A DNA stretch of 64,000 nt, taken from Asparagopsis taxiformis. Taxonomy: Eukaryota > Rhodophyta > Florideophyceae > Bonnemaisoniales > Bonnemaisoniaceae. Shown one piece after another: positions 38,266-64,000 of the stretch. The stretch covers positions 26,269 through 90,268 of the forward strand of contig JALQPE010002394.1 in the NCBI GenBank assembly GCA_030407315.1. Direction: 5' to 3'. Within the stretch, counting starts at the first letter, position 1. Each line of letters starts with the position of its first letter. The notes beneath the pieces are model-generated. The model ran no database searches. It saw nothing but the letters and a program-made list of their open reading frames with translations, and had not been told where the DNA came from. A program made the position numbers and the translations under genes.

Positions 38266-38267
38266 TC

Positions 38268-39784: not shown

Positions 39785-40140
39785 GAAAAAAGACAGTAAA
39801 TTTACTGTCTGAGACAGTAAAAATTACTGTCTGGCCAAGACAGTGCGCGGAGACAGTAAAATTTACTGTCTGGAAATTTCAGAATACTGCTGCAGCAGTA
39901 AACTGGCACGAAATCTGGACAGTACCAAAAACAGTAAAATTTACTGTCCAGAACAGTAAATTTTACTGTCCGGAAGTGTTGCCTCCAGACAGTATGTGCA
40001 GACAGTACATTCTACTGTCTGAGGCAATGCATTGTATTGTATTACTGCACTGTCTGGGTAAATCTGTAGACAGTAGTGTAGATAGCAAATTGTATTGTCT
40101 GCGGGTAGTACCGTGCATTGGTTCACAACACTGTCTGGTG
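39785..40140. repeat. Left subterminal repeats (GACAGTA/TACTGTC)
   Basis: At least ten copies of ACAGTA or its complement, often paired as palindromes such as GACAGTAAATTTACTGTC. Dense short subterminal repeats are the usual transposase-binding sites of CACTA-like and related elements. Confidence 0.8.
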
Positions 40141-40675
40141 GAGTGGACTTGAGAGGAAATATGGAGCATAGTGTTGGTGTGAAGGTAAATATTGGAATGG
40201 TGTGTGGTATACGACTATAGTAATTGTGATGGTGCTTTACAGATAGTTGGGTGCGGGAAGCTAGATGCTGAATAGGACGTAGAATGAAAGATTGGGAAGA
40301 TTGAACATATCTCGTTTGTCTCACCGTAAGGAGAGAATGTACAGAGTAGCTATATTATGTTGAGTTTAGCATTTCAAATTATACCTATCTATCTTTGCAT
40401 TGAAAGTGTCGAGTAGGAGACGTCAGTCTGGTAGCGAGGTGTGGTATGCACAGGACGTGGGTGGTGGCAAAGGAAAGAATACGCACCATCCACCACTAAA
40501 TTATGAAAAATAACCGTTACGGAGCACTGGGAAGCATTATTATTATGTAGAGTAGAACAGGATGGATGCATCCACTGGAATGATATTTGCTACAACACTG
40601 CTGTACTAAGCGTGACATCCTTCCTTCAAAGCACTTCTCCTTCTCCTTTTAGCAAACTCCAATTGCAAGTTCAAC

Positions 40676-42160
40676 ATGAATCCCGAAACCTCCGTAAGCA
40701 TCGCCGCATTTTCCGAAATAACGCGTGAGGGCTTTTCGAACATCACTGCAGAGCTGAAAGCCCTGAGTGATAAAATGGATGCCGTCGAGAAGAGCACCAT
40801 TCAATTACGCGAGACTCTCGGAAATGTCGCCAAGACTGTCTCCATGCTAAACACCGATATGCAGGAGGTCAAGAGCATCGTCGATGGGCTTCTGAGCCAG
40901 GGACAAGGACATCCGAAGAAGATCGCCTCCGAGAAGGACAGGGAACGTCTCCGCATTGCGCAGGATGCGGAGAAATCGTTCACGTTCGAAATGGTGTGTG
41001 CTGTGCTGTGTGCTGTTGTTCCAACGTACACGAAGGCAATGGTGGATAAGAGGGATAGGCATTTCAACGGATGCCAGCTAATCAATACGCTGATGTTCGC
41101 CAGGCAGAGCAATGAGCGAAAGGATGTGTTCAATAGGACGCTTGCCGGCCGGAACCACATTGAATTGCGCTGCCAAGTTGTGACCTCTTTAATCAAGAAT
41201 ACGTGTCAAAACAATTCTTTCAGAGAGGGAGGAGACCGTTCCAGCTCCAATGGAACGTCGGAAGGTATCGAACGGTGGAGGGCGCGGGGGTATGTGACTA
41301 CCGGGACCATTGAGGAGACAATTCGCGGAACGGACTCTGCTCGCATGGATGGAATGCATGGGACGTCCGAGGGAAGTGATGGGGCCGCTCGAAAGCAGAA
41401 GCGAAGAAAGGTTGGTGACAATGGGCCGTTGCACAGAAAGGAGGTAGGCATCACTGTGACGAAATCGGCACTCACGGCAGTGACCGGGTTTATGAACAAG
41501 TCCAGAGATCATGTGCGAAACCGGTTCATCCGAGATCTTGGATTCGTTCTATACAGTGGGTTTCAAGGTTCAGTCCGAATGGAGCATCATTTGCACGACG
41601 GTGGGCTGGACATTGAGTCAGTTCCAAGTCTGTACTCGGCGCAGAGGAAAATGAATGCAGCGGAGCGTGCAGCAATGGATGACAAGAATATGAAGATTCT
41701 TCGCGACTTCATTGCAGTGCGAAAAGAAATGCTATTCAAAGTCGAGTACGAAGTTCAAATAATTGGAGAACCGGACAAGAGGTTTTTGACTAGGAGGATC
41801 AATTTAGTAGAGGTTGCACTGAACTTTGCAGTCGCCTACACGCAATGTTCTGATAAGAACATGTTCCTGCGACGTTCAGAATACTCCTTGCAATTCATCT
41901 ACATACTTGCATACGGGTTCCGAACGATTTTGAAATTTCAAAGTGGAACAGAGGTGGAAGGAGCGCAAATCCGGGAAATCAATGAAGCAGTGAAACTGCT
42001 TCTTCCCGGGGAGCGGGTGAGTAGTCGGTTCATGAATGAGGAGGTTTTGACTATATCGCGTGATAGATATGAAGAACTGAATGTAGACGATGGGGGGAAT
42101 CAGTGCTGGAGGAGAGCTTCAGGTCTATGGAAGAGGACGGAGGAGATGCAGAATATGTGA
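40676..42160 (+). CDS. Unknown coiled-coil protein of the giant transposon
   Basis: 494 aa from the ATG at 40676. Residues 1-80 are a predicted coiled coil (heptad-like FSNITAELKALSDKMDAVE, then LGNVAKTVSMLNTDMQEV). About 95-170 is a compact hydrophobic-basic region. Residues 180-260 are low-complexity and charged with a basic patch KQKRRK that could be a nuclear signal. About 260-440 looks helical and globular. No enzyme motif is apparent. It is the first gene after the left end of the element, transcribed inward. A structural or DNA-end-binding role is possible but only a guess. Confidence 0.6.
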   Translation: MNPETSVSIAAFSEITREGFSNITAELKALSDKMDAVEKSTIQLRETLGNVAKTVSMLNTDMQEVKSIVDGLLSQGQGHPKKIASEKDRERLRIAQDAEKSFTFEMVCAVLCAVVPTYTKAMVDKRDRHFNGCQLINTLMFARQSNERKDVFNRTLAGRNHIELRCQVVTSLIKNTCQNNSFREGGDRSSSNGTSEGIERWRARGYVTTGTIEETIRGTDSARMDGMHGTSEGSDGAARKQKRRKVGDNGPLHRKEVGITVTKSALTAVTGFMNKSRDHVRNRFIRDLGFVLYSGFQGSVRMEHHLHDGGLDIESVPSLYSAQRKMNAAERAAMDDKNMKILRDFIAVRKEMLFKVEYEVQIIGEPDKRFLTRRINLVEVALNFAVAYTQCSDKNMFLRRSEYSLQFIYILAYGFRTILKFQSGTEVEGAQIREINEAVKLLLPGERVSSRFMNEEVLTISRDRYEELNVDDGGNQCWRRASGLWKRTEEMQNM

Positions 42161-42476
42161 AGGTATTCGTCGATGATGAAATCGAGAATGAAGGGGAGTA
42201 GTATCGGATGAAACCAGTTTCGGTGTAGTAGACGAAGAATGAAGAAATAAAATTTCTGTTGAGTTGAATTTTGTAATAGATGGAAGTAGATAGATGCGAG
42301 ACATCAGGAAACCAGTCAGACGATAGTGTCAAGTCGAAGGAAAAGCGCAGAGACAGGTAGTGGAATAGTCGAAGTAGGAAGGGGCGAGGGTATCCGTCTT
42401 TACTAGAAATTGATGGCCACAGGAGCTCTAGAATGGAATACCCAGGAACAGGATAACTACGGATAGGTGTGCTTTA
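42161..42476. other. Spacer between convergent genes
   Basis: About 300 bases between the stops of the coiled-coil gene (plus) and the next gene (minus). It contains AATAAA at about 42246, a possible polyadenylation signal for the plus gene. Nothing else seen. Confidence 0.4.
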
Positions 42477-43838
42477 TCATTTTTGCTCCGGACTGCAGGT
42501 GGCAGGTGGAGGAGAGGGTGGGTGGGTAGTGTCTGAATCCGCATTGAAGCCAAGACGAGAGATAGCCTCATAGCCAATGTCTTCAAGCTCCTGGCATGTA
42601 GTAGTACCACTGAAAATACAGCAAGGTAAGCGTAGATGTAGTGTACCAAACGTCTCTGCGGTTGATAGAGGCTGGAAAGTGCTGTAACAAGCTCGGCGCT
42701 GAATACGTCTCCACAGTAACGAAAACGTTGCTCCATAGGTAACAGTAGCCTTATCACGTAGGTGGAAAGAGTCCACGATGCTAGACTGTGATAGTTGGCT
42801 AAGACATAGGGGATGTAAAAATGTATTGTTGACATGGTCAAACTCGTAGGAGTCTCTGCAAAGAACTGTCATACGTTGGTCTGGGCTGGACAGGACGTAA
42901 GCAGATGAGCCGACGAGAAATGCGGAAGAAGGAGCATCATGAGAGCAATCAACGTCGACTAGATTTCCTAAAATTCGGACAATCGATGAGCTGCCTCCAT
43001 CGCGTTCCGCCCTGCTCTTCACCAATATTTTCTGGAACCCGTGTTGCGAGGTACCTATGGAGTCACATAGTGCCTGAAAGGTGGGGAAAATGATGGAAAG
43101 ATCCGACTCATTTCCAGAGGGAAAGGTGATGTCCTCAAAGGACGGCTGGAAGAGAACGTCACGATTCTCTTTCGCCTTGCATTGAATGGCAATAGTGCGG
43201 AATTGAGCAAGGGAGCAGTCAGCCTGTACTCTGATTTCTTCTTGCGATGTTTGTCGCATTCCCCTGGAGTGCTCGGATTTTGTCATCCGGAGGGAGAGGG
43301 GCTTGTCCGTGTACACACCAAGCTTCTGAAACAGAATGCTACATACAGTCAGAGCAGAGGAGGTCATGGAGCTGTTGGAATCGAATGGAGGGGGAAGAGG
43401 ATGTTTGGCAGCTGACTCCAGCTTTTCCAATCTTGCCAGCATTTCTGCTATGGTCTTCTTCATTTGATCCGCAGTGCAATCTTGAAGGATGCCGCGGTGG
43501 CGGTGGCGAGTGTGGTCAATGCCGTAGTCCGGGTCTCTCTCTGCTGGGGATGCAGGTGAGTCCATACTGCGAAGCTCACCACTTCGCCACGGGAGAACCC
43601 TTCCGGAATCCTTGTCGACGAGCTCGTTACGATCTGAAATCTTGACTTGAGAAAGGGTAGAGTCGAAACCATATTCAGCTTTGTATTCGAGCAATGCATG
43701 GAGGAATGGGTCTGTTTCAGTCTTGACCTGAGTAATTTCCTTGACGATTGCAGACCACCACACAATTTTTCGTTTCCTCCCAAACGGCCGAAGTTCCCAT
43801 TGAACTTCTATAACGTCGTTTGGAGCGAGAGGAAGCAT
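42477..43838 (-). CDS. Unknown protein with possible chromatin-reader-like N-terminus
   Basis: 453 aa from the ATG ending at 43838. The first 60 residues (NDVIEVQWELRPFGRKRKIV, then WWSAIVKEI) have the pattern of a small SH3-like barrel such as Tudor or chromo-barrel: V-E-V, basic turn, W-W-x-A-x-V. This is a weak resemblance. Residues about 115-150 are helical (KKTIAEMLARLEKLESA). The remaining 300 residues look globular, with no motif I know, and end in a Pro/Ser tail. It is divergent from the ParB-methyltransferase-SET gene across a 0.5 kb spacer, which suggests shared control. Confidence 0.55.
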   Translation of the reverse strand: MLPLAPNDVIEVQWELRPFGRKRKIVWWSAIVKEITQVKTETDPFLHALLEYKAEYGFDSTLSQVKISDRNELVDKDSGRVLPWRSGELRSMDSPASPAERDPDYGIDHTRHRHRGILQDCTADQMKKTIAEMLARLEKLESAAKHPLPPPFDSNSSMTSSALTVCSILFQKLGVYTDKPLSLRMTKSEHSRGMRQTSQEEIRVQADCSLAQFRTIAIQCKAKENRDVLFQPSFEDITFPSGNESDLSIIFPTFQALCDSIGTSQHGFQKILVKSRAERDGGSSSIVRILGNLVDVDCSHDAPSSAFLVGSSAYVLSSPDQRMTVLCRDSYEFDHVNNTFLHPLCLSQLSQSSIVDSFHLRDKATVTYGATFSLLWRRIQRRACYSTFQPLSTAETFGTLHLRLPCCIFSGTTTCQELEDIGYEAISRLGFNADSDTTHPPSPPPATCSPEQK

Positions 43839-44350
43839 GTTGGGATAGCTATGGGATAGAATTGTTGTATTAGTGAAAGCCTAACCGTTACCTTCTGCTA
43901 AAGAGTAGTATATACTAGGAGGATTGGAAAGGTCGAGAAGAGATGTTTAGGTGGTGTAGAAATAGAATGGACAATTGACAAAATTGACACGTCAGTGTGG
44001 ATGATGTCTGCCATGAACTGATTGCAGCATAAAATTTGATGTGAATAATCGTTCTAGAAGTGAATGTCGGATGCATACGATTGGACTACAAAGATACGTT
44101 AGAGATGTTACGGGGCCCAATAAATTGCATGGAAAAATATTTTGAGTATTACTTTAGTATTACATTGATTATTGAGCTAACAGTCGATGTAGTTATCTTG
44201 TAAAGGTTCGGACAGGGGTGGAAAGGAAACAGCCACCGAAGTGCTACCACTCGCTGACACTTTGTTTTAAACAACCAACTTCTGCTTTGCGCCACCCTGG
44301 TCAAGCAGCAACCAACTATCCCTTTCTTAAAAACTCTACCTTTGTTCGCC
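43839..44350. promoter_or_regulatory. Divergent promoter region
   Basis: Intergenic DNA between divergent genes (43838 minus and 44351 plus). TATATA at 43909-43914 lies about 70 bases upstream of the minus-strand ATG. No equally clear TATA is visible for the plus gene. Confidence 0.4.
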
Positions 44351-47300
44351 ATGGAAGGAACGTTCCACAATCACGGTGAAAAGCACGACGGATGGGTGTT
44401 CATCGACCCCAATCAAGTCAGCAAATTCGTATCGATTCGCGATGTTGATGCAAGTCATGTGGAAGCGCTCATGGAGAGCATTCGCAACAGCGGTTATGAC
44501 ACAGCTCATCCCGTGACTGGCAGGTTTCGAGAAGGCGTTCTGGAGATATTGGATGGAGCGCACCGCTGCATGGCAATTGTACGTGGAATGGAGAAGGGCG
44601 TCTTTCCTCCTGGCGTTACGATTCCTATGCGAGAAGAGTCTATCGTGGCGGACACCAACAGCAGTACTGCTGTTGTGCTGGACCGTGTGAGAGCGACGAC
44701 ATCCAACGACATTGCAGGCCTGCAAAGGCGCATGATGTTTGTTGAGTATCTGATGATCGCCGTTGATCTCAGAGACGAGTACTGGGTCCAAAACGGAAAG
44801 GACAAGTACGCTCATATTTCGTCTGTGAGGATGGCTGATGTGTTGGGCTGGATCAAATCCTGCGATCCAAGCGGCCAAATTGCTTCAAGCCTGAGTGGTA
44901 AACCGCAGTACAGCTCATGCATGTCTATCCTGGCTGTGCTTCGGCCGTATCACCGAGCAGAAGATTCGAGTTCGATTGATTTGCGTCTGTGGCAAATGTT
45001 TTGTCATGCATGGGGACTCAATGCAGAGATGGGTGATTCTCCGAGGATGGTTGAGTTTCCGAAACAGGTGGGGGTGACTAGTTCTCGTGCCGTCGAAATG
45101 TTTGGCAAGACACCCCGCGGAGAATTGTCCTCTCCACTGAACCGCGAACTGCTTTCGAGCAGGTACTTTCTGGACGGCGCTACATCCGACATGCAAGATT
45201 CTTTGCAGGCTAGCCAGAAGCGGTTCAGGAGGCTGATGGTTATGATGTGCCAGTGTATCTTGGCTATTCGCAGTAAGGAGATGGGCAGTGTGCCATCTAG
45301 GCGGGCCAGAGCCACATCCGGGGCCATTGGTGGTGGTGGAATGGTTGGAATTGCAACATCCAGTGCGCAAGCCAACCAGCTTGGATTTGTTGTCGACCGT
45401 GTGTTAGCTGCGTGGGATACCGGGGCAAGAGTGTTGGGGTATGAGGATGTTGAATCGATGTGCTGGCCGTTCATGGTATTCGATCCTGCGAGCCTTTGCT
45501 TCAGGTCACTCCCGAATCGGTCTGATGGCTGCGCGGTCGAGGAGCATCGGAAAAACCTGACCATTGTCCCGAAAACTGTAGACAGTGAAAACGGGTTCTG
45601 TGCCGACCTTCCAGTGGCTGTGGATGCAAGGCTGCGATCATTGACAAGCGCCTTCCTGCTGTCGATACGCCAATGTGTCACTGAGGTGAATGTGTTCGCC
45701 GAGCGTGGTCAGCTGATGCAGAGACTTCGAGCCTTGCTTTTCGACACTCCTGACAAGTTCGGCTTGAACTCGTTCATGCGAGCCAAGTTGAACACGTCTC
45801 ATGCCCTGGATGGTCAGAGGAGGCTGAAGGCTTGGTTATTGCGAACCCGAGAGCAACGAAAGCTTCCTCTGACCATGGATGAGTTGCACAGTCTTGAGGA
45901 TACGCCCGAGCCTGGCATCCTTGAAGGTGCACCTGCGCAGATGGAAATATCCGCAGCAGTGCCAAACAATGGCAGCGAGGATATAGAAGAGGATAGTCTG
46001 GAGCCACAGAGGAAGAAGGCTAGGCTGGAGCGCGGTGGTGGAGAGGACGATAATGCGGCGGTTGCTAGCGAAACAGCAACAAGAGAAGGTGCGGCCGAGG
46101 ATGACGCTATGGAGGTTGACACTGTATCGCCTACAGAAGCACCGCTCGTTGACGTCGGAAAGGAAACCAAGCCAGAATATGTCACCAAGCTGGAAGCTGT
46201 GATGGGGCGTTACATTCACACTGTGAATTGTGACGCCACTGATGTAGCCAAAGAGGTGGAGGACAAAATTAGTTTCCTGGAAGATGGCGTGTTGGAGGAC
46301 AGTGTTCAGCTTGTGCTCACTGATCCTCCATTCAACACGAGGCGGGAAGGCGGCAGAGAAAACTCGGAGTACGATATTCTGGAGCCGGAAGAGTTGGCGA
46401 GTGTTGCGTGTGAAATAGTTCGAGTTCTTCGGCCTGGCGGTCATGCTCTAATCTATTCCAGCGTGCGCCAACTCGTGGCATGGATGGATGCAATCAGAAA
46501 TGCCGAGCCTGGCAAGATGATTGTGGACAGTGTTCCAGTCGTGCTATCTCGCCGACCACACAGCTTTACGTCCAATCCATCGACGAAAACGTGCACACTG
46601 CATAATATGCACGATTTCGTTATCCATGCGTATAAGCGGGGGAAGGGTATGGCTGCATACGATATGGTGGATTACAGGTTGCACAATCCGGACATATCGA
46701 GGCACCCTGGGTTCACCAACGCGATTGACAACGTTCCGAGGTTGTCGGCTGGTGAAGCTCAATACGATGGGCAGAACAACCGACTGCGCCATGAGCAGAA
46801 GGCGTTGACCACTCTTCGTGAGCTTCTGGAACGATTTTCGAAGCAGAACGATATCGTGATGGATTTCTTCTCGGGAACATACAGCACAGCCATAGCGTGT
46901 ATGACGTTGAGGGATGGTACGTATCGTCGGTTCATTGGGTGTGAGAAGGAAAAAAGGTGCCACGATGCATCGCAGGAGTGGATACTGCATGCTTTCGTCA
47001 GTGAGGTGAAAGCCGGGCGATATGGGGGGATCTTGCAGCGTGAGGTGGAGAGTATTCTTGGGGACGAGTCGGTACCGGTCACAGGAAAAGCTCCAAGGCT
47101 TCGTCAGAAGCACATCTCAGATGCACCAGAAGGTTTACCTGCTGTGACAGCATTGCCGAACCATCTGCTTGTGTTCGTTGCGTCAATGAAGAAGGACGGG
47201 TCTATGCTTCACAGATTGAGCGGGGTGCCTATGGACCAGTGGCCGGCCGAGGACATGCACTCGTTTTGGAGCATAGACCCGGACGCGATTCTGGCTGCTG

Positions 47301-47818: not shown

Positions 47819-48094
47819 GCTACTTTGATAGATTTGAGTAAACACGCATTGACAGAGACAATAGACTGTGCATCATCTTCCAAGAGCGCTAGATATTATA
47901 GACTACACTACAACAATCGTGACATGACTGCAGGAAGGCATCTGCGGCCTGGAGTGCAAACTATCCACTTTTCTACTGCTATACCTATGGATACGAAAAG
48001 GAGAGAAACTAGAAAGATGTGAGTGAGAAATTGTGTAGCAACGCAGCATGTAGAACACCAGTAAGAGAGCGATGTAGGAGAAGCAGTCACCCCA

Positions 48095-48330
48095 TTACAG
48101 TGCGGGCCGTTTACCGGGGATGCTGACAGCAAAGTCATCGTTACGATGACTTTGCTGTAAGAAAACAAATCATTACAGCGGCCACAATTTTTTACCCGGT
48201 AAAAATTCTTGCTGATTTTTTACCCGGTAAAAAATTCTTTGGCCACTGCAAGGAAACGGTTCCTTACAGCAAAGTCATCGTAACGATGACTTTGCTGTAA
48301 GGAACCCTGGTAAACGGCTTCGGCTGTAAG
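48095..48330. repeat. Palindrome cluster 1
   Basis: Bounded by TTACAG and CTGTAAG. It contains two A modules (ACAGCAAAGTCATCG-W-TACGATGACTTTGCTGT, about 48126 and 48265) and between them a B module with two TTTTTACCCGGTAAAAA palindromes inside CATTACAGCGGCCA ... TGGCCACTGCAAG. The outer edges GCCGTTTACC and GGTAAACGGC are also inverted. The whole cluster folds back on itself. Confidence 0.85.
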
Positions 48331-48805
48331 CAGCAGGGAGTTTCGTCCTTCTCCCATCTTGGTAAAGGTGAGAAGCGAAGTGTGAAGTCGGGAAAATTGC
48401 TCAGCAAAGGTCTGTACGGCTGTGAGCAGCTCTCAGGAGTATTTTACCTCACGTGGTCTCTGTTCAGGTTATACCCTGTATATATATAGGTAGCCTAGTG
48501 TAGGTGGGAAGATAGACGAAAATTCTACCAATAATTTATCACAGTGACGGCTCTCGTAGTCGAAATCTGCGCGTTGTCAAGGGTTGAAACTAGTCTCCCC
48601 CTACGGCCTAGCTAGTAAAATCATACAACGTTGTAGACTAATATTAAAAAGTAGCAAGCAATCTGCTGAGTAGCACTAAACTATGAGATGAAGGACAGAT
48701 GTATAGATGAGAACTGAAAAGTGGGCTAAGGTAACAATGTTGAGATGAGAAAGACAGAACTTTATAGCAGGGAACAGTAGTATAGGTTTTAATACTTCTG
48801 ATATG

Positions 48806-53497: not shown

Positions 53498-53733
53498 CTT
53501 ACAGCCGAAGCCGTTTACCCGGGATGCTTACAGCAAAGTCATCGTTACGATGACTTTGCTGTAAGGAAAGGTTTGATTACAGTGGTGAGAAAATTTTACC
53601 GGGTAAAAAATCAGCAAGAATTTTTTACCCGGTAAAAAATTGTGGCCGCTGTAATGATTTGATTTCTTACAGCAAAGTCATCGTAACGATGACTTTGCTG
53701 TCAGCACCCCAGCGAAACTGCATCATCTGTAAG
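53498..53733. repeat. Palindrome cluster 3
   Basis: Starts CTTACAG, ends CTGTAAG. Two A modules (about 53527 and 53667) enclose a B module with TTTTTTACCCGGTAAAAAA. The left edge GCCGAAGCCGTTTACCC is the inverse of the right edge of cluster 1, so clusters 1 and 3 form an inverted pair around the frameshifted ParB-dioxygenase gene. Confidence 0.85.
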
Positions 53734-53954
53734 CCTTCCTCACCTCAATGTTGCAACCAAAGACGACTGCGATATTACCTTGTTCTATTCTAGTAGTGCC
53801 CACCATAGTTTCCTCCCCTTCTCATATTAAATTGAGTATTGTATATCTCCTGACCCGTCTACATACGCAAACGTCATGTACTAGCCTAACTTTCATCGTT
53901 TACTTGAAGGCGGCCTTGATGCCTGCCATAGAATGCTATTAAGAACTAATTTCA

Positions 53955-56900
53955 TCAGATATCTAAACGCTCCCAGTAGTTGACATTGAAGGGAGGCTGT
54001 AGCAACTTCTCCCTGGAAGTTCGCAGTGATAGATGGGACCGGATAGGATGCTGGTACCTCACCGAAGAACGACCCTCCGCGAATCCCATTCCTCCGTGAT
54101 ACACGTCCGTTCGGCATACAAGCAGGGAATACGGTGGGATGCGCACGTTCGTCACTGGCACGCGGTACTTGTCTTTCGCTGGATGACTTAGGCACACATG
54201 GCTGAACTTGGCGATACGAATGATGAACCCATCCGCACCAGCAGCCATCATGAAATATGATGGCGAGTTGAGAGGACCAGTTCCAGTTCCCTCACGGACG
54301 GGAACATCGGTATGCATAAGTTGCTCCTGACTACCTTCTGCGGTCAAAATCAGACGAAGACCCGTTTCTGGAAAGACCACCGCTTCTTCTCTTCCAAACC
54401 CGAGCTTCAGGTTCTCCGCACAAATCGCCTTACCTAGCTCCAGAATCAGCTTGTTCCTGTACTGCCGCGCGCTTTCTTGCTCAAGGTCATCGCAGATGCT
54501 TTTCCGGTCCGTCTTGAATACACCAGTGCTGTCTTTCGGTCGAAGTGGTTTCCACGGGTTCTTCTGACTTGCACTTGAGCCACTTGTAGTACCTTGGAAT
54601 GTGCTGGCCATCTGTGTGAATAACTCGTGCGTAGCTGCTCCCACTGTAGTAGAAGAGAAAATGTCTTGCAACACCACGTAACCAAGCTCGTCGATCATTC
54701 TTCTCTGGTAGCTGAAGTATTGTTGGCTTTCACAAGAACCGAGGGGACATACCAAAGTAGAGTAGCCTGCAGCTGCTTCCATTATCTCCGTCCGGATTGT
54801 ATCAATGTCTTCTTCTGTGATATAATACTTCATTCTCGAGTTGGAAGGAACGCATAAAGGCAGCTTCTCAGGTATCTCCTCTGCGAATGTGCGGTCTGGA
54901 AGGGAGTTTTCTTGCTCGTCAGTGAAGAGTGGTGCTTCTTCTCCAGTCGTTCGTTTTCTTGCATTGACTCTACTCTTCTTTTCCCGGGGAGGCCCAATCT
55001 CAATGTTGTCATCCGGCGTATTGGGCTCAGAAAACTTCGCGCTAGTATCTTCCCTTCTTCGCTTCTTATGCAACCTGGACTCGTTTTCATCGCCGCTTCC
55101 ACCAGAACTCCTGCTTCTTCCCGAATTCTCCTTGTCCACTTCGGCCGGGCTAGTGCTGTTAGTTTCTGGTGTCCTGATTCGAAGTTTCAATATCACAGAG
55201 CGGTTCTGCGCATCTCCAGCTTGTTGTCCAGGCGTGTCTATGTCCATGCGACCACTATTGTCCAAGTTGATATCCAGACTTTGCGTATCGCCGCTTTGTT
55301 TCCTTCCCTGAGGAAGATCTTCTCTGACAATCCTTCCCGGCGAATTATCCCTGGCACGACTTTCCCGCTCTGCCCTTGAAGCTGAAAGACGTTCCTGTTC
55401 TTTTTGGAGAACAGCAAGACGTTCTGCTTCCCTCTTCTCAGCTGCTGCAAGACGCGTGGCAGGACGTTCCTGTCCTCCCTCTTTTGCTGCGGCAGGACGG
55501 TCTTCTGCTTCTTTCGGGGTGCTCAGAGGTGCCTCTTCTATTGCTTTCGTCGCGACAGCAGGAATCACTTCTTCAGCCACCACATTTGGAGTAATTTCCT
55601 GTTCTTCCTCCACAACAGCAGAAACTTCCTGCTCTACTTGGGCTTCGGCAGATACTCCTTCTTCTGCTTGAACAGGACCAGGAGTTTCCACCGTTTCCTT
55701 CTCTGTAGAATTATTTCCCTGTTCTGCGGCAGTAGGTGCTTCTTCCTCTTCTGCTTTGGCGCCAGCAACAAGTGCTTTTTCTATTTCTCCGGGGGTCATG
55801 CGATTCCGTTCCCTCTCCTCCTCCGCTTTCGTCTCCTGCATTGCCTTTGTCCCGGTAGCATATTCCAGTTTGTCGTAAAAACTGTTTGTAAACATCCCGT
55901 TCTTGGTTCTCAGACTGCTTCTGTCTACCACGTCGTCATGAAAGTCGACAAGGACGAATACAATGCGCTCTCCAATGCGATGATCATTATCCCCGACCTC
56001 CTTCGCGTTTTCTGCTGCCAAATCCGTTCGCACGAATTCCTCCATCGTTGCAGAGTTCAACCACTTGCGGACGACCTCTGCCATATCATAGATGGCCAAC
56101 AGAGCCAGTAGCCAAGTGCGCATCGTGAACGGACTTCCGCTTCCGATATTTCTGACAAGTCCTCTCTTCCTCCTCATCCTTGTCCACGACGCTGTCATCT
56201 CGAGCACAAACCACTGGAACCACTCCTTATCGCGCGTCCCGCGTCCGTCCGTGCCATTGCGGAATATTGCGTTATTGACAAGATCGAGCACGCACCCGTA
56301 CATATCGGCAGAGTCAATTCGAGAAAAGTCCGGATCTCTTCCCTCGGTTCTTGCATCCTCGATTTCTCTGTTCCTATCCAAAGCATTGTAAACGCTAGGG
56401 ATAGAGCTCCAGTACACGAAAGCAACGCTGTCTGTGCGATTGAACCCCTTCGCAATGTTGATGTACTGCCTATACGAGTTCTCCGAACGGTTCCTGTCGG
56501 ACGGCAGAATATAGCTCACTTCTTTCAGAATAGGAATAAGCCGGACAACAGGAAGATCCATCTGGTTGGAAAACCTGAGAAACTCTATGACCGCACAGAC
56601 ATTGTCGGCAATGCTCACAGAAGCGACATCGTGAGTTTGTATATTGGCTTCGAGAGACAGTTTCAGAACCTCCAGCGCATCGAAAATTAGACGCCCGTTC
56701 GGCGCAATCAACTGTTGTACCCAAACCAATTCCAAGGAATCCCTGTTCTTTCCTGAGTACTTCTCCAGGCATAGTTGCAGAGCAGCTATGCGATGAGAGC
56801 CATCGATGCAGTAAAACTCGTCTCCTTCGTTATCTTCCATTTTGCAGACTGTAATCATAGTTCCAGTGGTAGAGAAACCTCTATCCATGAAAATGCTGGC

Positions 56901-57077
56901 CAGTTCGTTTACACGACCCGGTCGCACCAAACGGGAGGTCACTGTCGGAAACTTCACTTTGCGAGGATCAACTTGCACTTTAGAAGAGCTGTACTGAGCA
57001 ATAGTGATGCTTTTCTCTTCAGCAGAAGGAGAATTGCTCTTCTCCGCTGTAGTATTCATGATACTATTGTCTCCCAT
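53955..57077 (-). CDS. ParB-like / 2OG-Fe(II) dioxygenase-like protein (intact)
   Basis: 1040 aa; start at the ATG ending at 57077 (MGDNSIMN), because the 24 upstream codons open on TTG. The ParB-like domain covers about 40-180, with SRLVRPGRVNELA, MITVCKM and CIDGSHRIAAL (DGSHR 92-96). A helical domain of about 200 residues follows, then a Glu/Ala-rich low-complexity linker (about 430-600) and an acidic-basic region with KKRRRE and KKSRVNARKR, possible nuclear signals. From about residue 770 comes the dioxygenase-like domain: SRMKYYI, GLRLILTAEG, MHTD (His922-x-Asp924), SPSYFMMAAGADGF, PPYSLLVCR, VYHGGMGF (His994), and a later Arg in RSHLSL. Such enzymes oxidise methyl groups on bases or proteins, or other substrates; which applies here is unknown. 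TET/JBP-like activity would be an attractive hypothesis next to a methylase. The whole chain is colinear with the gene pair at 48806-52428. Confidence 0.8.
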   Translation of the reverse strand: MGDNSIMNTTAEKSNSPSAEEKSITIAQYSSSKVQVDPRKVKFPTVTSRLVRPGRVNELASIFMDRGFSTTGTMITVCKMEDNEGDEFYCIDGSHRIAALQLCLEKYSGKNRDSLELVWVQQLIAPNGRLIFDALEVLKLSLEANIQTHDVASVSIADNVCAVIEFLRFSNQMDLPVVRLIPILKEVSYILPSDRNRSENSYRQYINIAKGFNRTDSVAFVYWSSIPSVYNALDRNREIEDARTEGRDPDFSRIDSADMYGCVLDLVNNAIFRNGTDGRGTRDKEWFQWFVLEMTASWTRMRRKRGLVRNIGSGSPFTMRTWLLALLAIYDMAEVVRKWLNSATMEEFVRTDLAAENAKEVGDNDHRIGERIVFVLVDFHDDVVDRSSLRTKNGMFTNSFYDKLEYATGTKAMQETKAEEERERNRMTPGEIEKALVAGAKAEEEEAPTAAEQGNNSTEKETVETPGPVQAEEGVSAEAQVEQEVSAVVEEEQEITPNVVAEEVIPAVATKAIEEAPLSTPKEAEDRPAAAKEGGQERPATRLAAAEKREAERLAVLQKEQERLSASRAERESRARDNSPGRIVREDLPQGRKQSGDTQSLDINLDNSGRMDIDTPGQQAGDAQNRSVILKLRIRTPETNSTSPAEVDKENSGRSRSSGGSGDENESRLHKKRRREDTSAKFSEPNTPDDNIEIGPPREKKSRVNARKRTTGEEAPLFTDEQENSLPDRTFAEEIPEKLPLCVPSNSRMKYYITEEDIDTIRTEIMEAAAGYSTLVCPLGSCESQQYFSYQRRMIDELGYVVLQDIFSSTTVGAATHELFTQMASTFQGTTSGSSASQKNPWKPLRPKDSTGVFKTDRKSICDDLEQESARQYRNKLILELGKAICAENLKLGFGREEAVVFPETGLRLILTAEGSQEQLMHTDVPVREGTGTGPLNSPSYFMMAAGADGFIIRIAKFSHVCLSHPAKDKYRVPVTNVRIPPYSLLVCRTDVYHGGMGFAEGRSSVRYQHPIRSHLSLRTSREKLLQPPFNVNYWERLDI

Positions 57078-57878
57078 TGTAATCCCTGCAATCTCAGTTC
57101 GTTCAATCGGTTCTCTGTTCAAATGTTGTGTAGACGATGAAATCCACAATTGTGGTACCTCCGAGTGCGCTTCCCGTCTCTCAGCTTCCTCTCATATACT
57201 GTCCGGACAAGACATTCCCCCTACCTTCAGTCCTGATGAACCTTACGCTGCACCCGCTCAGCACCTCTGACTCTACCTGATCCTGATACCTCCACAAAGC
57301 GTTTAGCCCTTTCCATCAATCTACACCTAATAGTATGTACCTCTAGCGCATATAATGCAATCGAACCCGTTTACCTCACCACGTCAATTATCATTCATAT
57401 TCCAACAACCTATTTCATCCACACTCTCCACCTCGCTTCTTCTTCCATACCATTGATTCCTATCAATCGATTCTACGTGAGTTTTATACATTTACTACGA
57501 TCCACCTCTCCTACAAGTCTGAAAAATTCATTTCTACACTAACTTTTGCTACTCACAAATAAACGGTTCCCGTGCAGGCCACTGCTTGAATTTCTTCCTA
57601 TTGGCGTACTCGGCTGCAAAGGATTCATAGACTATTTAAACGGTGATCATATAAATGGTTTTCAATGTGCTCCAATGGACAATACACCAATGAACATCAA
57701 TATGAATTCTTTCAACTACCTATTCACTACTGCGATTCAGTTTTCTTGCATACCAAATCTCATTGCCTTCCTACCCTAGTCGATTCAAAATGCTTCCTCC
57801 TCGTCAGTTGATCAATATTCCTTACAACGAGCAGGTCCTCTGGACATCCTAAAGTTGGTTACTTAACCTTAACTATCG
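57078..57878. other. Spacer upstream of the ParB-dioxygenase gene
   Basis: About 800 AT-rich bases with no credible ORF (the 77-codon frame at 57546 has no domain). It probably contains the promoter of the minus-strand gene at 57077; no clear TATA box is visible. Confidence 0.4.
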
Positions 57879-58221
57879 ATGAATTTGCTGTAAGAAAAGA
57901 AAACATTACAGCAGCCACGATTTCTTTACCGGGTAAAAAATTGTGGCCGCTGTAATGAAACGTTTTCTTACAGCAAAGTCATCGTTACGATGACTTTGCT
58001 GTAAGAAAACAAATCATTACAGCGGCCACAATTTTTTACCCGGTAAAAATTCTTGCTGATTTTTACCCGGTAAAAAATTCTTCGGCCACTGCAAGAAAAC
58101 GGTTCCTTACAGCAAATCATTACAGCTGCCACGATTTTTTTACCCGGTAAAAAATTCTTGGCCACTGTAATGGCAACGTTTTCTTACAGCAAAGTCATCG
58201 TAACGATGACTTTGCTGTAAG
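57879..58221. repeat. Palindrome cluster 4
   Basis: The left part is eroded (starts within GAATTTGCTGTAAG). Two full A modules (about 57967 and 58184) and one deleted A (TTACAGCAAATCATTACAG at about 58105) alternate with B modules containing TTTACCCGGTAAAAA and CATTACAGCGGCCA. It lies between the dioxygenase gene promoter and the 3' end of the transposase. One internal stretch (57998-58110) is nearly identical to cluster 1. Confidence 0.85.
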
Positions 58222-58341
58222 CATACCTCCCTCCATCCTCTCAGATCCTCTCCCCACTACTTCGCACCAATCCACCAACGCCCTAGAGTGTACAATTCAT
58301 ATGTGATGCATCTGGTTATTCATTTTATTCTTCCCTAAAAA

Positions 58342-59601
58342 TCATGCAGCCCTCGGTGGAAATCCGTCTCGCCTACATAGTGCATATATCTCTCCACCCT
58401 CCAGCAGTCCGGGTCCGTGCCTTACCTCCCTCATGTTCTCATCATATTCGCATACACTCCCATTGCAATAGTGCATACCAAACACCTCAGTGACTCCCTC
58501 ACTCATCTCCACAATTACTGTTCGTCGCCTCTCTTCGACCTTGAACACTCCTTCATCAGTTTTTTGCAAACCCAGGCAAACTCCATAAGCTGTACCTTGC
58601 TCATCTCTCGCACTCTCGTTCCTCAGGATAAAGAACGCTAGAACAATAAAAAACCGCGGTTCATAATTAATTCTTCCCCGCATTATCTCTGATGTGAGAC
58701 GAGACGCCGGGTACAGAATCGCTTGTGAAGTTGCACCATCCTCACATGTCATCTGTTCAGGGCAAACAGCATGGATGATAGCTCCTGATTCTAGAGAGCC
58801 AGACCTCTGCACTGTTTTCCTTCCCCACTCTGTCGTAGTGCTTCTAGAAACTCTTCTCACCCATTCGGCATACTTTCCACACCCGCTTGTTCCGCTTCCG
58901 TACCTTTCGGTAAAGAACCGTTTGAAAACACCTACAGCACCCTCTGCCATATCACATTTTCCATTCATGTACTCCTTGACCTCGTCAATAGATATACCTC
59001 CATGCCCTCTCCACGTCACAATTTCACCATCCGCCGACAATATCTTTCCTCGACGCTGGGAGAGAAGCTGGAGAACCGGTTCCTGGAAGCAGTTTTTCAC
59101 TACCTCGTCTTCCACATCTATTTCTCTCCCTAGCTCCTGTGAAAGAACGTTGACCATTTGAGAGCATTCGGACGAGGACCAATGTTGTGGCTCCATGCCG
59201 ATTTCGCGCAAAACAATGGCCACTCTCGTCTGCCAGTCATCCGCAAGAACTAATTCCAGCGCTGAAAGCTGTTCGCTTTGGTGATTGGACATTCTCACAC
59301 CTTTCTTCAGCGGCTGATGCATCCGTTCGAATATAAGCTCCTGCACGTGCTTCACAGAGCCGTAGGCAGGAAGCGTATGAACACAAAACTCGACAAGACG
59401 ATGAACATTAGGCTTGTCCAAATGTGCTCCTGCTCCCTTCACTTTCCGACAATACTCATTCAACGTCTCCACGTAGTCTACAGTTCTTCCCAGAATGTAT
59501 TCATTCCTGCCACCTTCTCCGTCAGCCGTCTCTACTTCATGTGGACCGTCTTTCCACCATACGGGCATGAAACTAATACACGAAACCAGCTTCTGAAACA
59601 T
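58342..59601 (-). pseudogene. Transposase, C-terminal part with catalytic Glu
   Basis: 419 codons from the ATG ending at 59601. It starts where the frame at 59607 stops, displaced by one base. The segment KPNVHRLVEFCVHTLPAYG followed by ELIFERMHQPLKK matches the end of the catalytic core of CACTA/KDZ-type transposases (NxH...LP..YG...E/F/E...LKK), providing the third acidic residue. The rest (about 290 residues) is a separate, probably helical region plus a beta-rich tail (FKVEERRRTVIVEM, EVFGMHYCNGSVCEYDE). The link to the upstream frame needs a frameshift or a very short intron; TTTCAG at about 59593 could be an acceptor, but no in-phase donor is obvious. Confidence 0.6.
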
Positions 59602-59606
59602 CACTA

Positions 59607-60665
59607 CTAGTTTGACGGCCCATCAAATTTTTCACGATGACCTTCCCCTTTCCCATCCATCATTCGAGCTGCGTTTTCGAATGCCATAGGTGCTATCAGC
59701 AGCACACTGAATATGTCACTCATGTTCATGGAAAGCAGATTGTTGGTTCCAAATAAACGGTTCTGCCTTCCCATCCTGAACTTCTTCAGAGCGCCCAGAA
59801 TTTGCAATTCAGCTACCTCTCGAATTCGTGGGCTGGCAGCTGAAATACAAGCGTTCAGTACATCTTGTGCCAGTCCAGACAATAGATGGTCAGGTGCTAT
59901 CACTGCGGAACGGTACGGGTCAAAAATTGCTGGGACAACTGAAACTCCGTTTTCCGTCTTCGGTACTTCTTCCTGCACTGCTTCCAAGGAAGTGCTCAGG
60001 ACATGAAATGGTAAATCTTCCCCTTCTTCTGCAGCCAGTCCGAGAGTGCGAAGCTGGGTTTCTGTGGCATCCTTACGTGTCGATGCATTCCGATACTTGC
60101 TCCTGGCATGCGTCGATGTTTGCCCGTTCACTACCGAAGTGTATGCATTCTTCGTGCCACCAGTACTGCTCAGGTCATATTTGCGGAAACTGCAGATGTG
60201 GCACGGAGAGTTTGATGTGTGTCCAAGAACATCCAGGGTATGTGAAACTGCAGGATAGTCTCCAATGCTCCCCACTGGGTCTAGAAATACCACAACATCT
60301 TCTCCCTCTGCATTTTTCGTTGGGAAACCCTCTGTGCTTCCTCGCACTATATCTTGAACGATATATCGCAATACACAATTTGTGGACACTCCCGGAGGTG
60401 GCAAACCAATCACTCGAACCGCTTGGTAGCTTCCCCTTTTCCGAGGCGGTAGATTGAGAGGTAACATATAGCATCCACCAAAACTTCCCTTCCTGCTTGT
60501 GAATGGTTCAAAGTCATCCGTGTAAAGGAGAAATCGGTAAACAAAGTAGTTTCGACCATCCTCCAGCTTTCCCCAACATGGTGCATCTTCTCGCGGAGAC
60601 GCTGGGTGCCATTGCGACCTGTGGTCTCCGAAACCATCCGAGAACACCCTGAAACACGAATTTCT
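59607..60665 (-). pseudogene. Transposase, central catalytic part
   Basis: Contains the first catalytic Asp in VFSDGFGDH, the strand MLPLNLPPRKRGSY, the second Asp region FLDPVGSIGDYPAVSH, and directly after it a zinc-type CHICSFRK, the usual position of the C-x-x-C insert in CACTA, KDZ and hAT-like transposases. It then has PDHLLSGLAQDVLN and LLSMNMSDIFSVLLIAP, which correspond to the D/H and W/S...LL...P motifs before the final Glu. This frame is the same as that of 60666-61259: only a TGA at 60666-60668 separates them, so either a nonsense change or an intron ending TTTCAG at 60650 lies here. The stop at 59607 divides it from the C-terminal part. Confidence 0.65.
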
Positions 60666-61259
60666 TCATAGTTTATCGGGCGGGTTTCTGGCTTCAGCAA
60701 AGCTCGCGCCCGGTGAAAAGCAAAGTAACATGGTGGATGCTTCTCCGACCTGCTCTTTCAAATACCTGTTCACCAATACGACGTGTGGAACAATATCACC
60801 CTCTTCCATTCCAATTGGTAATAGAACGGTTATCACGTCCCCAGCTCGTGTTCCTTTTCCCTTGGCTCCTGCTCCGATTACACATTGCGATATCGCTCGC
60901 AGAGCATGCTGCCTCTCCCATTCCAATAGATGTGACATTCGCGGCTGCAGATATTTTTCGACATGCACATCATGCTCACCGTCGTGTCGAGCCTCATAGG
61001 TAACTATGGTCCTAGCATGAAGTTCCCACAACGACGTAACCGCCACTCTTCTCCTCTTCGGTTTCCCACCATCTCTGTCATTCTTCCTGAACCCTTTTGC
61101 TCTTTCGATGACGGCAACCTGACGAGCTCCTGGATGACATCGGATTCGAATTGCTGTTCCATCAGGTACATAAATGTGCTTCAAACCCTTTTTCCCATCG
61201 CTGTCAATGGGAACAACTGCTGTGCGAACGAATGGGTCGCTCAAAACACCCTCCTGCAC
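60666..61259 (-). pseudogene. Transposase, N-terminal domain part 2
   Basis: 198 codons; this frame opens just after a TGA upstream of 61259 and has no ATG (GTG at 61259), so it cannot be an independent gene by normal rules. Segments such as PIDSDGKKGLKHIYVPDGTAIRIR and VPHVVLVNRYLKEQVGEA look structured but match nothing I recognise. It continues from the 61241-62128 frame by a one-base shift and runs into the catalytic part after a single TGA. Confidence 0.5.
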
Positions 61260-62128
61260 TTTGCAATGAACGAATCTTCAATGCTGCACTCTGCGGTTGA
61301 TTTTTCTCCTTCCGAGCTTCGATTGTTCGCATCACTGCGGAATGCTTTAAAGATTGGTCGAGTCTGGACATCTTTCAGAGCCCATGTGCTTGGGAGTACA
61401 ATACGAACTTTCGCCATTCCTCCACAATTGTCTCTGTCATCTGTTGTTCCACGGGTTCCTACTGCACCTCGATGCTGTGCAGCTCTTGCTCCGCTCTTTC
61501 GAAGGTCTATCGGAAACTCGATGTCACAGCTCTTTGCATAGCAGTGTTTCCTCAAGAATGGTAGTATCTTCTGTCGCATCACAGAGTCCGACGGGACGTG
61601 CTCACTTGGATCTCTGCGGAAATTCATTCCGAACAGGGTACCTTCATAGTGGGCTCTTGTCATTCTTTGAGTTCCACTCAGCTGAAGAGCCCCATACATC
61701 GCAGGCCATTGTAGTAATGCCTTGAAATCACCACATGCTTCATCCCCAGCATTTCGGTCTATCGGGCCTCCAGTTGAAATGGAATCAGAACCTCGTCCGG
61801 TTGCTTCTTCCGATTCCATTAGCGTGCTCGATGCTACGTAGATGTCACTTCCAGCTTCATCGTTGTTGCTGTACACATCAATACAACCTTCTATTGTGTC
61901 ACCCATAGGGATTGGGGACTCCAATAGGTCATCTGTGGTACACTCACGTCGTAGCTCATTACCTCTCGGGATTTCTTTGTTCATGCAGGCTGCATCACTG
62001 CTGCGGATTTCTCCCTGCAGTTTCCCAGGAAGCTGTTTACTGGGACTGGCCACATTGAGTGAATCGAATCTCGCCTTTGTCCTACGACTTGTGGTTTTCT
62101 TTCGAATAGGAGTCCGTCTCGGAGCCAT
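61241..62128 (-). pseudogene. Transposase, N-terminal domain part 1
   Basis: 295 codons from the ATG ending at 62128. The first 25 residues are strongly basic (RRTPIRKK, SRRTKAR), a likely nuclear or DNA-binding tail. An acidic low-complexity region (40-120) follows. About 130-250 looks globular (FKALLQWPAMYGALQL, MRQKILPFLRKHCYAKSCDIEF). The frame ends at 61241 after SFIAKCRRVF, while the next part overlaps in another frame from 61259. The segment is colinear with the transposase parts downstream, so it is most simply the N-terminus of the same protein. Confidence 0.5.
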
Positions 62129-62230
62129 CTTGATGTTTTTGTTCTTTTCTTCTTCGCTCAGTTTTGTTGCATAGAATACAACTCTAAACTTCTATGACAT
62201 GACTACTATCTCAATACAGTACTACTACTT

Positions 62231-62473
62231 TTAACCGTTACGAAACCTTTCCAGGCTTTCATTCGATCCAATGAACTGGTTCACCACAATGCTTTGCCCT
62301 ATGCTCATTGCTTTATGCACATTGATTGCTATTTCATCCGGACTCAACATCGTTTTGCTATCTTGTATCGCATCCCTAACCACAAACCCAGCCAAGATGT
62401 ATCCATTTCCGGAAAACGGCCGTTTATTTCGCAGTGATGCTCTAGGCACTAATACTGAATCTGATTTTCTCAT
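62231..62473 (-). CDS. Small hypothetical protein upstream of the transposase
   Basis: 80 aa from an ATG ending at 62473, in the same direction as the transposase and 100 bases upstream of it. The composition looks protein-like (FSGNGYILAGFVVRDAI, SPDEIAINVHKAM), with no low-complexity bias. No domain is recognised. It could be a first exon, a small separate gene, or chance. Confidence 0.3.
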   Translation of the reverse strand: MRKSDSVLVPRASLRNKRPFSGNGYILAGFVVRDAIQDSKTMLSPDEIAINVHKAMSIGQSIVVNQFIGSNESLERFRNG

Positions 62474-63085
62474 ACACGTACTTCCTACTCGTATACTCTA
62501 CCATTTTCGGCCCTATTTACAAGTTGAAAGCACAATCTCTCGTTGAATCGTACTCGGTGTGATATCTTAAATTAGCATAAATTTATATATTGCAATGCAG
62601 ATTCACTGCTCGCTTGCAACATGAAAATTATAAAATTTCTCCCACACTGCTGTTTCCTAGCCGCCCACATCCACGTGGCCCGCTTTGACTGCCTGCCAAG
62701 TGTGCTCAGAGCATGCAATGACGTCATCGATATATACCGTCCAAATCATCACTGGAAGCGCGGACTCCTCGTCCAGGAAAGTGCGCCATTTTTCCTACTC
62801 CTCGCCTCCCCTTTCAGTAGGCCCCATATGCTAGTGTTTTTCCTATATTTCTGTAGTGATGACGTCATTATAGACTAGAGAAGGCGGTAGAAGATACAAT
62901 AATTTTGCGCCTGTTCTGCCAGGTCATGTGCTTCAAAGCGTAATTCGCACCCTAGGTATCGTTTTTTCTGGGCCTCCCATCGCACCGCTCCGTTTCAAAT
63001 TCATCCCTCTATTGTTCTCCTACACGTCATTTCCGCCCGCAGAGTGCTACTTAAACAACAGATTCTGGAAATCCCTGTTTCCATC
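62474..63085. other. Non-coding DNA near the right end of the giant element
   Basis: About 600 AT-rich bases without a credible ORF. The plus frames at 62621 and 62928 are short and hydrophobic with no domain. Confidence 0.4.
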
Positions 63086-63225
63086 TTCATATCCGTCGGA
63101 AACAAAGCAACAACCTTGGCCGTGGAAGCCGTATAGATCATCTATACTGCTTCCAAAGCGTAAGTTTTAGATCATCAATACTGCTTCCAAGGCAAAGTTG
63201 TTGCTTTGTCTCCGACGGATATGAA
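63086..63225. repeat. Long inverted repeat (35-base arms)
   Basis: Left arm 63086-63120 (TTCATATCCGTCGGAAACAA and on) and right arm 63191-63225 are complementary with a few mismatches. The 70-base loop holds two direct copies of TAGATCATC(T/A)ATACTGCTTCC. It has the shape of a small foldback element or a hairpin at the base of the right terminal region. Confidence 0.8.
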
Positions 63226-63919
63226 CCATGATGGTACGTTTCACACAACTCACGCCACTAACCCAGTTTTCTATTTGTTTTCTCTTTCTCAGGTTTCCAG
63301 TCGGTGAGTGTTCCACTTCTACTTTCATTTATCTTTCTCTCTTAACCACTTCCTCCACTACTTTTCTTTTTCTGCCTGTGAGTACATATCTCAATTTGGG
63401 ATGCAATGGTATTTGTTAAGGTACGTTAGTCTCCTAATCACCATCAATTTCCCTCTCCAATTCAACGTCACTAACTTGTTTCCTTTCTCTACATCATTTT
63501 TCTTTCTTCTCTTCATTTCCTAGCTTATTCATGCAGCTCAATCAGTTGATAGATTTCTAGACTTTTCTAGTAGTTTTAGTTTTACTCGTCGGAATAGTTG
63601 TTAGTTGTAGTAGCATTTTTAACATAGGGATTGTTTATCTCTCAATGTAGCCTGCGCAAATAAACAAATCAGAGTGAGCTTCCCATATCGCATCCCTCTT
63701 AGATTGCTACCTATCCTACCCGCGTATCCCTCTCGCTAGCTCATAGTCATACTACGAAATAAAATTCCTAGCCGTACTATTCTGTCCATTCCCATATGAA
63801 TACCGTCCATGCCCCATCCTCATAGCGCTAGAACTGCCTTCCTCTACCCCAAAAGATGCCCACGACAGCGTGACGCTCCATCTCATCCATCACTCCCAGA
63901 TACCGGAATTTTACTATAG

Positions 63920-64000
63920 TCAGGACACTATCTTTTTACTGTCTCCAGGTGCTGCCGCAGGGCGAGCACGAAATACTGTCTACAGGTGCTGCCCAGGCAG
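63920..64000. repeat. Right subterminal repeats (TACTGTC ... CAGGTGCTGCC)
   Basis: TTTACTGTCTCCAGGTGCTGCCG and, 40 bases later, ATACTGTCTACAGGTGCTGCC. The reverse complement, (G)GAGACAGTAAA or GTAGACAGTA, recurs in the left subterminal region. The array probably continues beyond the window. Confidence 0.65.

Follow-up and report, generated by a model that had tools for sequence, protein, structure and literature searches.

The distal part of a 64,000-nucleotide stretch of the red alga Asparagopsis taxiformis genome (hereafter the window; contig JALQPE010002394.1 of assembly GCA_030407315.1, positions 26,269 to 90,268 of the forward strand) is occupied by a giant transposon: a single high-copy, little-diverged mobile DNA element, 24.6 kb long, whose ends are CACTA-like and whose target duplications measure 2 bp. 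From left to right, its genes are two open reading frames (ORF1 on the forward strand, ORF2 on the reverse strand), a fusion of ParB-like, N6_N4_Mtase and SET domains (forward), two ParB-like, dioxygenase-like genes (genes 1 and 2, both reverse) and a transposase candidate (reverse). Arrays of a 39-bp palindrome, which we propose as candidate landing sites of the ParB-like domains, lie around the dioxygenase-like genes.

Extent, ends and copies of the element

The left end of the element begins with CACTACGG at position 39767 and interrupts a Ty3-type pol, whose RVT_1, RNase H and integrase Pfam matches lie just outside it. The window is the final 64 kb of its contig, which ends with it at position 64000; the element runs beyond this point, and other copies place its right terminus approximately 0.4 kb further. 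A complete copy at C1728:30466-55087 (C numbers designate contigs) measures 24,622 bp, starts with CACTACGGTGTTGA, finishes with TCAACACCGTAGTG and is flanked by AG on both sides. The inverted ends span 14 bp (CACTACGGTGTTGA), are present at both ends of complete copies and fit the EnSpm/CACTA termini 5'-CAC(TA)...GTG-3'. Short subterminal repeats cluster inside both ends of the C1728 copy in a CACTA-like manner, GACAGT/ACTGTC reaching 34-47 copies per kb within ~300 bp of the ends (46.7 per kb over the first 300 bp) versus 0.5 per kb inside the element. The window contains 13 GACAGTA repeats at 39792-40075 and two at 63937-63980, and 21 overall versus 5.85 expected.

Collinear copies span the block on C1728 and C1937, and part of it on C1620 and C93; the C1728, C1937 and C1620 copies have their interior in common and share the same right terminus. 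An earlier reading of these letters (the original prediction) had proposed one continuous block that begins where a chromovirus pol is interrupted, with GACAGTA-type repeats at both visible ends, and had taken it for one giant mobile element in which genes for DNA methylase, SET and dioxygenase domains reside. The other copies, collinear and with the same ends, bear out both the continuity of the block and its identity as one mobile element with methylase, SET and dioxygenase-like genes. The repeats are located as described, the true right end being outside the window, and the pol is indeed cut, with the junction at 39767 instead of 39785, 18 bp further to the left.

To count copies, the genome (141.5 Mb, 3,156 contigs) was searched with both termini. 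The right terminus (an exact 21-mer) occurs 929 times and the left terminus (a degenerate 22-mer with at most one mismatch) 793 times, and reversed-pattern controls returned 0 matches in each case. Assigning an element of 14.4-24.6 kb to each right end would give a family total of roughly 13-23 Mb, an arithmetic upper range and not a count of complete copies. Five copies, two of them partial, diverge by 0.4-1.5% over 10 comparisons. Collinear order and identical ends elsewhere in the genome, on which the single-element proposal depended, were thus found, together with a 2-bp target duplication in 8 of 16 end pairs, compared with about 1/16 by chance (simple arithmetic); none of the 16 matches at 3 bp.

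These 16 same-orientation pairs are a selection from the first 100 places listed by each terminus search. Left out were a further right end that pairs with the C212 left end (TA as well) and single ends on C24, C66, C1620, C390, C671, C20 and C1889. Sorted by spacing, flanks match at 2 bp in two of five pairs at 24.5-27.2 kb, six of ten at 14.4-15.5 kb and zero of one at 8.4 kb, and in some pairs without matching flanks the two ends may come from different elements. An inverted right terminus lies 151 bp inside a left terminus at C20:85030-85230, and the same spacing recurs at C214:6108 and 6259; this arrangement is either a duplicated site or a nested insertion, one member of the family having inserted into another.

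A protein joining ParB-like, methylase and SET domains

The central region of the fusion protein matches Pfam PF01555 N6_N4_Mtase (2e-16, 60.8 bits versus a cut-off of 26.7), and its catalytic motif DPPF is in the beta-type order, in which DPP[FY] precedes the FxG motif. Searching the PDB with a two-sequence profile retrieved DpnA, MboIIA and CcrM, the adenine-specific label deriving from the PDB names of DpnA and MboIIA and from the NCBIfam name of CcrM; every NCBIfam CcrM-type match to the methylase is under its curated cut-off. The domain is a putative adenine-type DNA methylase. It is followed by a predicted SET domain (Pfam PF00856, 4e-6, 27.5 bits versus a cut-off of 22.4).

A search of 5.8 billion proteins, with ~8,000 candidates scored per query, returned one near-identical protein for each of three queries and one methylase homologue. 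The homologue P0002 (JGI source), 38% identical across 45% of the query, has an identical three-domain order and keeps the DG.HR ParB-like motif, DPPYNT (DPP[FY]NT), FSGT and the SET motifs. Because domain order and motifs are shared with P0002, the three-domain protein predates the present burst of copies and is no chance fusion. No divergent element family was found with P0002 as the query, and all 39 scored copies of the methylase gene belong to one family. A giant-virus origin was rejected: viral contigs were scanned with alignments of the methylase and of the dioxygenase domain and with the transposase, and no relative could be confirmed.

Two paralogous dioxygenase-like proteins

Genes 1 and 2 are paralogous, with 42% identity over the C-terminal domain and 34% over the N-terminal part. 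In the window, the C-terminal domains occupy 48809-50017 (gene 1) and 53958-54959 (gene 2), both on the minus strand. Both open with a DGSHR ParB-like domain, and both keep HTD followed later by YHxGxGF and P.R.H. An HxD...H...R arrangement of this kind resembles the active site of 2-oxoglutarate (2OG)-Fe(II) enzymes, and the retention of these motifs between diverged paralogs points to the C-terminal domain as a putative 2OG-Fe(II) dioxygenase. The ParB-like motif DG[AS]HR..A (DG.HR..A) is invariant in four of four members. Three genes with ParB-like domains had been predicted, tied to methylase, SET or dioxygenase domains. This number stands at the level of the motif; methylase and SET reside in one gene, the other two genes are dioxygenase-like, and Pfam backs the methylase and SET assignments only.

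Palindrome arrays inside and outside complete copies

The 39-bp palindrome CTTACAGCAAAGTCATCGTWACGATGACTTTGCTGTAAG, which the original prediction did not mention, is found nine times in the window, always within the element (at most six mismatches were allowed and 0 or 1 found), and its 18-mer half site was found 19 times against 0.00 expected. All nine full sites fall within three gaps between genes, those bordering the two dioxygenase-like genes, and the two other gaps have none. A second palindrome, with an ACC[CG]GGT core, alternates with the 39-bp palindrome. Genome-wide, the 25-bp palindrome core occurs 8,457 times as an exact match (control, 0), which corresponds to ~9 per right terminus. 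Array flanks were sampled at five places on four other contigs, and all five match DNA of the element family, in one case along just 60/151 bp.

A derivative at C104:62353-76797 retains this arrangement in a shorter element of 14,445 bp, with the element ends, a GA/GA duplication and 12 palindrome sites. Outside the arrays, it shares with the window copy of the element the left 483 bp, some spacer and the 62224-63997 stretch upstream of the transposase frame. It carries no complete element gene, dioxygenase gene 2 persisting in it as three short pieces with 81-86% identity; its open frames match EamA and a glycine transporter, similar to Pack-type gene capture. An end pair on C19 has the same length and AG/AG flanks. 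The arrays appear to travel with the element family where sampled, as well as in this gene-poor derivative, as expected for a cis-acting site.

Coding capacity, constraint and the transposase candidate

Three reading frames of the element are open in many copies. Among the best-scoring copies, the methylase-SET frame is open in 39 of 39 (window copy included; best 39 of 4,095 first-look candidates), the 1087-aa (amino acid) frame of dioxygenase gene 2 in 42 of 42 (best 42 of 5,137) and the 1288-aa transposase frame in 36 of 36 copies elsewhere (best 36 of 2,179). Dozens of intact gene copies thus exist genome-wide, these counts saying nothing on the share of copies that is intact. The original prediction had noted a transposase in pieces, which is accurate for the window copy and does not extend to the copies scored elsewhere.

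We computed the ratio of non-synonymous to synonymous polymorphism (pN/pS) among the five element copies. Four of the six genes are under purifying selection (pN/pS <1, P<=0.004): the methylase-SET gene (0.44, P 3e-4), dioxygenase gene 1 in both parts (0.12, P 3e-6 for the N part; 0.50, P 0.003 for the C part), ORF2 and the transposase gene (Table 1).

By eye, the transposase candidate contains YTDDF, GDYP, CHIC (C(2)C) and ERMH; H(3-4)H is not clear (HRLVE). Two intact transposase frames in the same orientation were observed at C66:12683-16546 and 26300-30163, 13.6 kb apart and too close for two full 24.6-kb elements.

Left of the insertion, the segment 32000-39766, the right part of which is the interrupted pol, has a GC content of 0.54-0.63 and a CpG observed/expected (o/e) ratio of ~1.5, above the rest of the window.

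Table 1. Features of the element and its left flank, in window coordinates.
Feature	Position	Strand	Basis or detail
Ty3/chromovirus pol (integrase, RNase H, reverse transcriptase), outside the element	37249..39766	-	Pfam RVT_1 2e-33, RT_RNaseH 4e-33, Integrase_H2C2 6e-17, rve 8e-11
Giant transposon, visible part	39767..64000	.	Collinear copies, long blocks 97.0-99.5%; complete copy C1728:30466-55087
Left terminal inverted repeat CACTACGGTGTTGA	39767..39780	+	Present in inverted form at the right terminus in three other copies
Left subterminal GACAGT/ACTGTC repeats	39792..40135	.	Repeat positions in window
ORF1, 494 aa	40676..42160	+	Open frame; start coiled-coil-like by eye; Pfam matches below threshold only
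ORF2, 467 aa stop to stop	42477..43880	-	Open frame; no Pfam match; pN/pS 0.39, P 0.004
ParB-like + N6_N4_Mtase + SET fusion, 1155 aa from first Met	44351..47818	+	Pfam and PDB profile matches; open copies
Fusion-gene motifs	ParB-like 44552-44575; DPPF 46322-46339; FSGT 46862-46879; SET 47399-47794	+	Motif positions
Palindrome array 1, 2 sites	48123..48301	.	Palindrome search
ParB-like + 2OG-like dioxygenase gene 1, split over two frames in window copy	48806..52428	-	Frames, motifs
Gene 1 motifs	ParB-like 51745-51759; HTD 49175-49183; YHYG 48950-48970; R.H 48890-48904	-	Motif positions
Palindrome array 2, 3 sites	52662..52927	.	Palindrome search
Palindrome array 3, 2 sites	53527..53704	.	Palindrome search
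ParB-like + 2OG-like dioxygenase gene 2, open in window copy	53955..57077	-	Frame, motifs
Gene 2 motifs	ParB-like 56790-56804; HTD 54306-54314; YHGG 54081-54101; R.H 54033-54047	-	Motif positions
Palindrome array 4, 2 full sites + half site	57877..58221	.	Palindrome search
Transposase gene, broken in window copy; 1288-aa open frame in others	58342..62191	-	pN/pS 0.25, P 9e-5
Transposase candidate catalytic motifs	YTDDF 60510-60524; GDYP 60252-60263; CHIC 60192-60203; PDH 59886-59894; FERMH within 59302-59331	-	By eye versus CACTA/Plavaka patterns

Discussion

The self-modifying or self-silencing activity originally suggested for this element remains hypothetical. We give about an even chance to an explanation in which a self-addressed chromatin state keeps the copies of the element expressed and mobilisable despite host silencing. 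Substrates of the transposase would be the inverted ends plus the subterminal GACAGT repeats. Through binding to the palindromes that the element itself carries (~9 per right end), the ParB-like domains would address three enzymes to element copies. There, the methylase would write N6-methyladenine, the SET domain would modify a chromatin protein nearby, and the dioxygenases would oxidise or remove a methyl mark, either the silencing mark of the host or the element's own. As a net result, copies would stay expressed and mobilisable under host silencing, and derivatives that lack a complete gene and retain ends and palindromes could be served in trans. The most specific form of this proposal, in which ParB-like domains read the palindrome as a parS-like site and deliver in trans to every copy one writer for adenine, one for chromatin and the two dioxygenases as mark removers, is tentative, and we hold it to be clearly less probable than the explanation as a whole. 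If true, it would represent a eukaryotic counterpart of a plasmid partition system, applied to chromatin.

Several observations weigh against this explanation. Profile support for the ParB-like domain is weak (phrog_1033 in three of four members at E<=1, best 6e-4 alone), and searches of Pfam and the PDB returned no ParB match for these domains. Likewise, profile (Pfam) and PDB searches gave no match for the dioxygenase-like domain, and the SET domain has ND at the position where NH is canonical. The 1288-aa transposase has no Pfam match at E<=10, a search in which the HMMER filters drop most weak matches, and no PDB match. The pN/pS values of ORF1 (0.78) and dioxygenase gene 2 (0.54) are not significant, 8 of the 16 end pairs lack a duplication, and retention of palindromes in the C104 derivative may partly reflect hitch-hiking, given its pieces of gene 2. 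Finally, the CpG o/e of the element is 0.87, mildly below the 0.99, 1.07 and 1.53 of three other window parts, and the transition/transversion ratio among copies is 0.9-1.6. These values suggest, as weak evidence, that CpG methylation has left no strong mutational footprint in the element. CpG o/e is a weak indicator here because non-CG methylation, such as that of the red alga Gracilariopsis chorda (~8% methylation, mostly non-CG; PMC8566409), would leave no CpG footprint.

The same gene set and addressing sites could serve self-restraint: the methylase and SET domains would put repressive marks on the element's own copies, limiting damage and recombination among the hundreds of copies, and the dioxygenases would lift these marks at a chosen life stage. 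With a copy number this high and so little divergence, restraint would benefit the host and, through it, the element. Selection within copies would be expected to favour escape, and we regard restraint as improbable, ahead of the other alternatives; the direction, escape or restraint, is not decidable from sequence.

Somewhat less probable still is that the arrays are foldback- or miniature inverted-repeat transposable element (MITE)-like repeats nested long ago, and that the accessory proteins are passengers that act on the DNA, RNA or protein of the host and are not addressed to the element itself. The array clusters show outer inverted arms by eye, build long inverted repeats and differ in site number between copies, all of which would suit such an origin. 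Against it, the arrays are confined to the three gaps beside the ParB-dioxygenase genes, a derivative without a complete element gene has them too, and element-family DNA borders them at five of five sampled flanks (a very small sample of 8,457 sites); in addition, four of six genes are under constraint.

In bacteria, Dam gates the transposition of IS10/Tn10 and IS50. By analogy, adenine methylation near the ends or the transposase sites might gate transposition of the present element in a replication-coupled manner. The resemblance of the methylase to the bacterial adenine methylases DpnA, MboIIA and CcrM points this way, and the dense end repeats could hold a methylase target; such control would have no need for a SET domain, two dioxygenases or internal palindromes, and we rate it a little below the passenger explanation. 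That nested or neighbouring repeats were mistaken for one block is highly improbable: the contig stops at 64000 with the right end outside the window, and half of the end pairs lack a duplication, yet the complete 24,622-bp C1728 copy, with both ends and an AG/AG duplication, and the collinear copies on other contigs contradict it.

As for classification, the 3-bp target duplication of EnSpm/CACTA elements is found in 0 of 16 pairs, compared with 8 of 16 at 2 bp, and the element is not filed as a canonical EnSpm because its duplication is 2 bp rather than 3 bp. The CMCT clade is characterised by CA..TG termini and 2-5 bp duplications, and its DDE transposases have C(2)C and H(3-4)H between the second D and the last E (Kojima 2025, PMC12730594). 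The termini and the 2-bp duplication in 8 of 16 pairs agree with that description. The original prediction's comparison with KDZ-type elements (Zisupton, Dileera, Kyakuja) is rejected: the Zisupton/Dileera duplication is 8 bp (PMC12730594), none of the 16 pairs matches even at 3 bp, the transposase lacks a Pfam match and the ends are CACTA-like.

The element also bears on the genome of its host, which is studied for cutting livestock methane. A. taxiformis L6 was reported to have 66 N6_N4_Mtase genes, where three other red algae have 4-6, and a DNA transposon content of 33.48%; the expansion is called potentially the most striking feature of the genome (PMC12115072). The element offers a plain explanation, in that many of these 66 genes could be transposon genes and not an expansion of a host family. 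According to the legend of figure 4 of PMC12115072, the contig that carries the bromoform gene cluster (contig 5424) also bears two DNA methyltransferase genes. These genes beside the bromoform cluster may be copies of the element. In the genome analysed here, a PAP2 search for clustered bromoperoxidases, which proved uninformative, returned 12 matches among 19 candidates and showed no cluster. More generally, if our explanation holds, one element family would bring its own means to find its own DNA and to write and rewrite marks there, and how transposons escape silencing would become testable by base-modification calls on long reads.

Phages have ParB-methylase fusions, in which, as in the element, a ParB-like domain and a DNA methylase are paired, and the element protein matches phage methylase and ParB-like profiles separately. 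Those fusions belong to prokaryotic elements, with no SET domain and no transposon ends.

The original prediction knew of no described system with this gene set, which is true in part. The SET fusion, the ParB-dioxygenase pair and the palindrome arrays were not found in the open literature, in searches that were not aimed at palindromes and with the caveat that Petroll et al. 2025 may hold some of them. Algal transposons with a ParB-like and methyltransferase protein and giant red algal EnSpm elements are in print (PMC12477816). Among the former, Sola1-1_Ec32 of Ectocarpus is a 21.5-kb transposon encoding a 1104-aa ParB-like + N4-methylcytosine/N6-methyladenine (4mC/6mA) methyltransferase protein, for which a self-modification hypothesis was also voiced; its transposase belongs to the Sola-1 superfamily, and the terms 'SET domain', '2OG' and 'dioxygenase' are absent from the main text of that paper (PMC12477816). 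The giant EnSpm elements of the red alga Bostrychia moritziana (Petroll et al. 2025, ref 51 in PMC12477816) resemble ours in giant size, EnSpm-like ends, several accessory genes and a red algal host.

Fungal DNA transposons, including EnSpm, Plavaka and ESTA, carry TET/JBP (Kojima 2025, PMC12730594) and thus have a DNA-modifying 2OG dioxygenase aboard, together with CA..TG termini and 2-5 bp duplications. Their dioxygenases are recognisable TET/JBP proteins, whereas those of the A. taxiformis element fall in no detectable family, are fused to a ParB-like domain and are accompanied by a writer. HarbingerS and MuDR elements of Phytophthora likewise bear a SET histone methyltransferase gene; they belong to other superfamilies, and the parts of PMC12730594 used here do not mention a DNA methylase fusion for them. 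The DNA methyltransferase (DNMT) retrotransposons of dinoflagellates and charophytes are mobile elements with their own DNA methylase as well, but are retrotransposons with cytosine-C5 enzymes, and no addressing domain is named in the parts of PMC5890265 used here. The general kind is therefore already in print, and the A. taxiformis element is a real, well-delimited giant transposon within it. It combines an unusually complete set of putative writers and erasers with a probable internal site to which they would be addressed.

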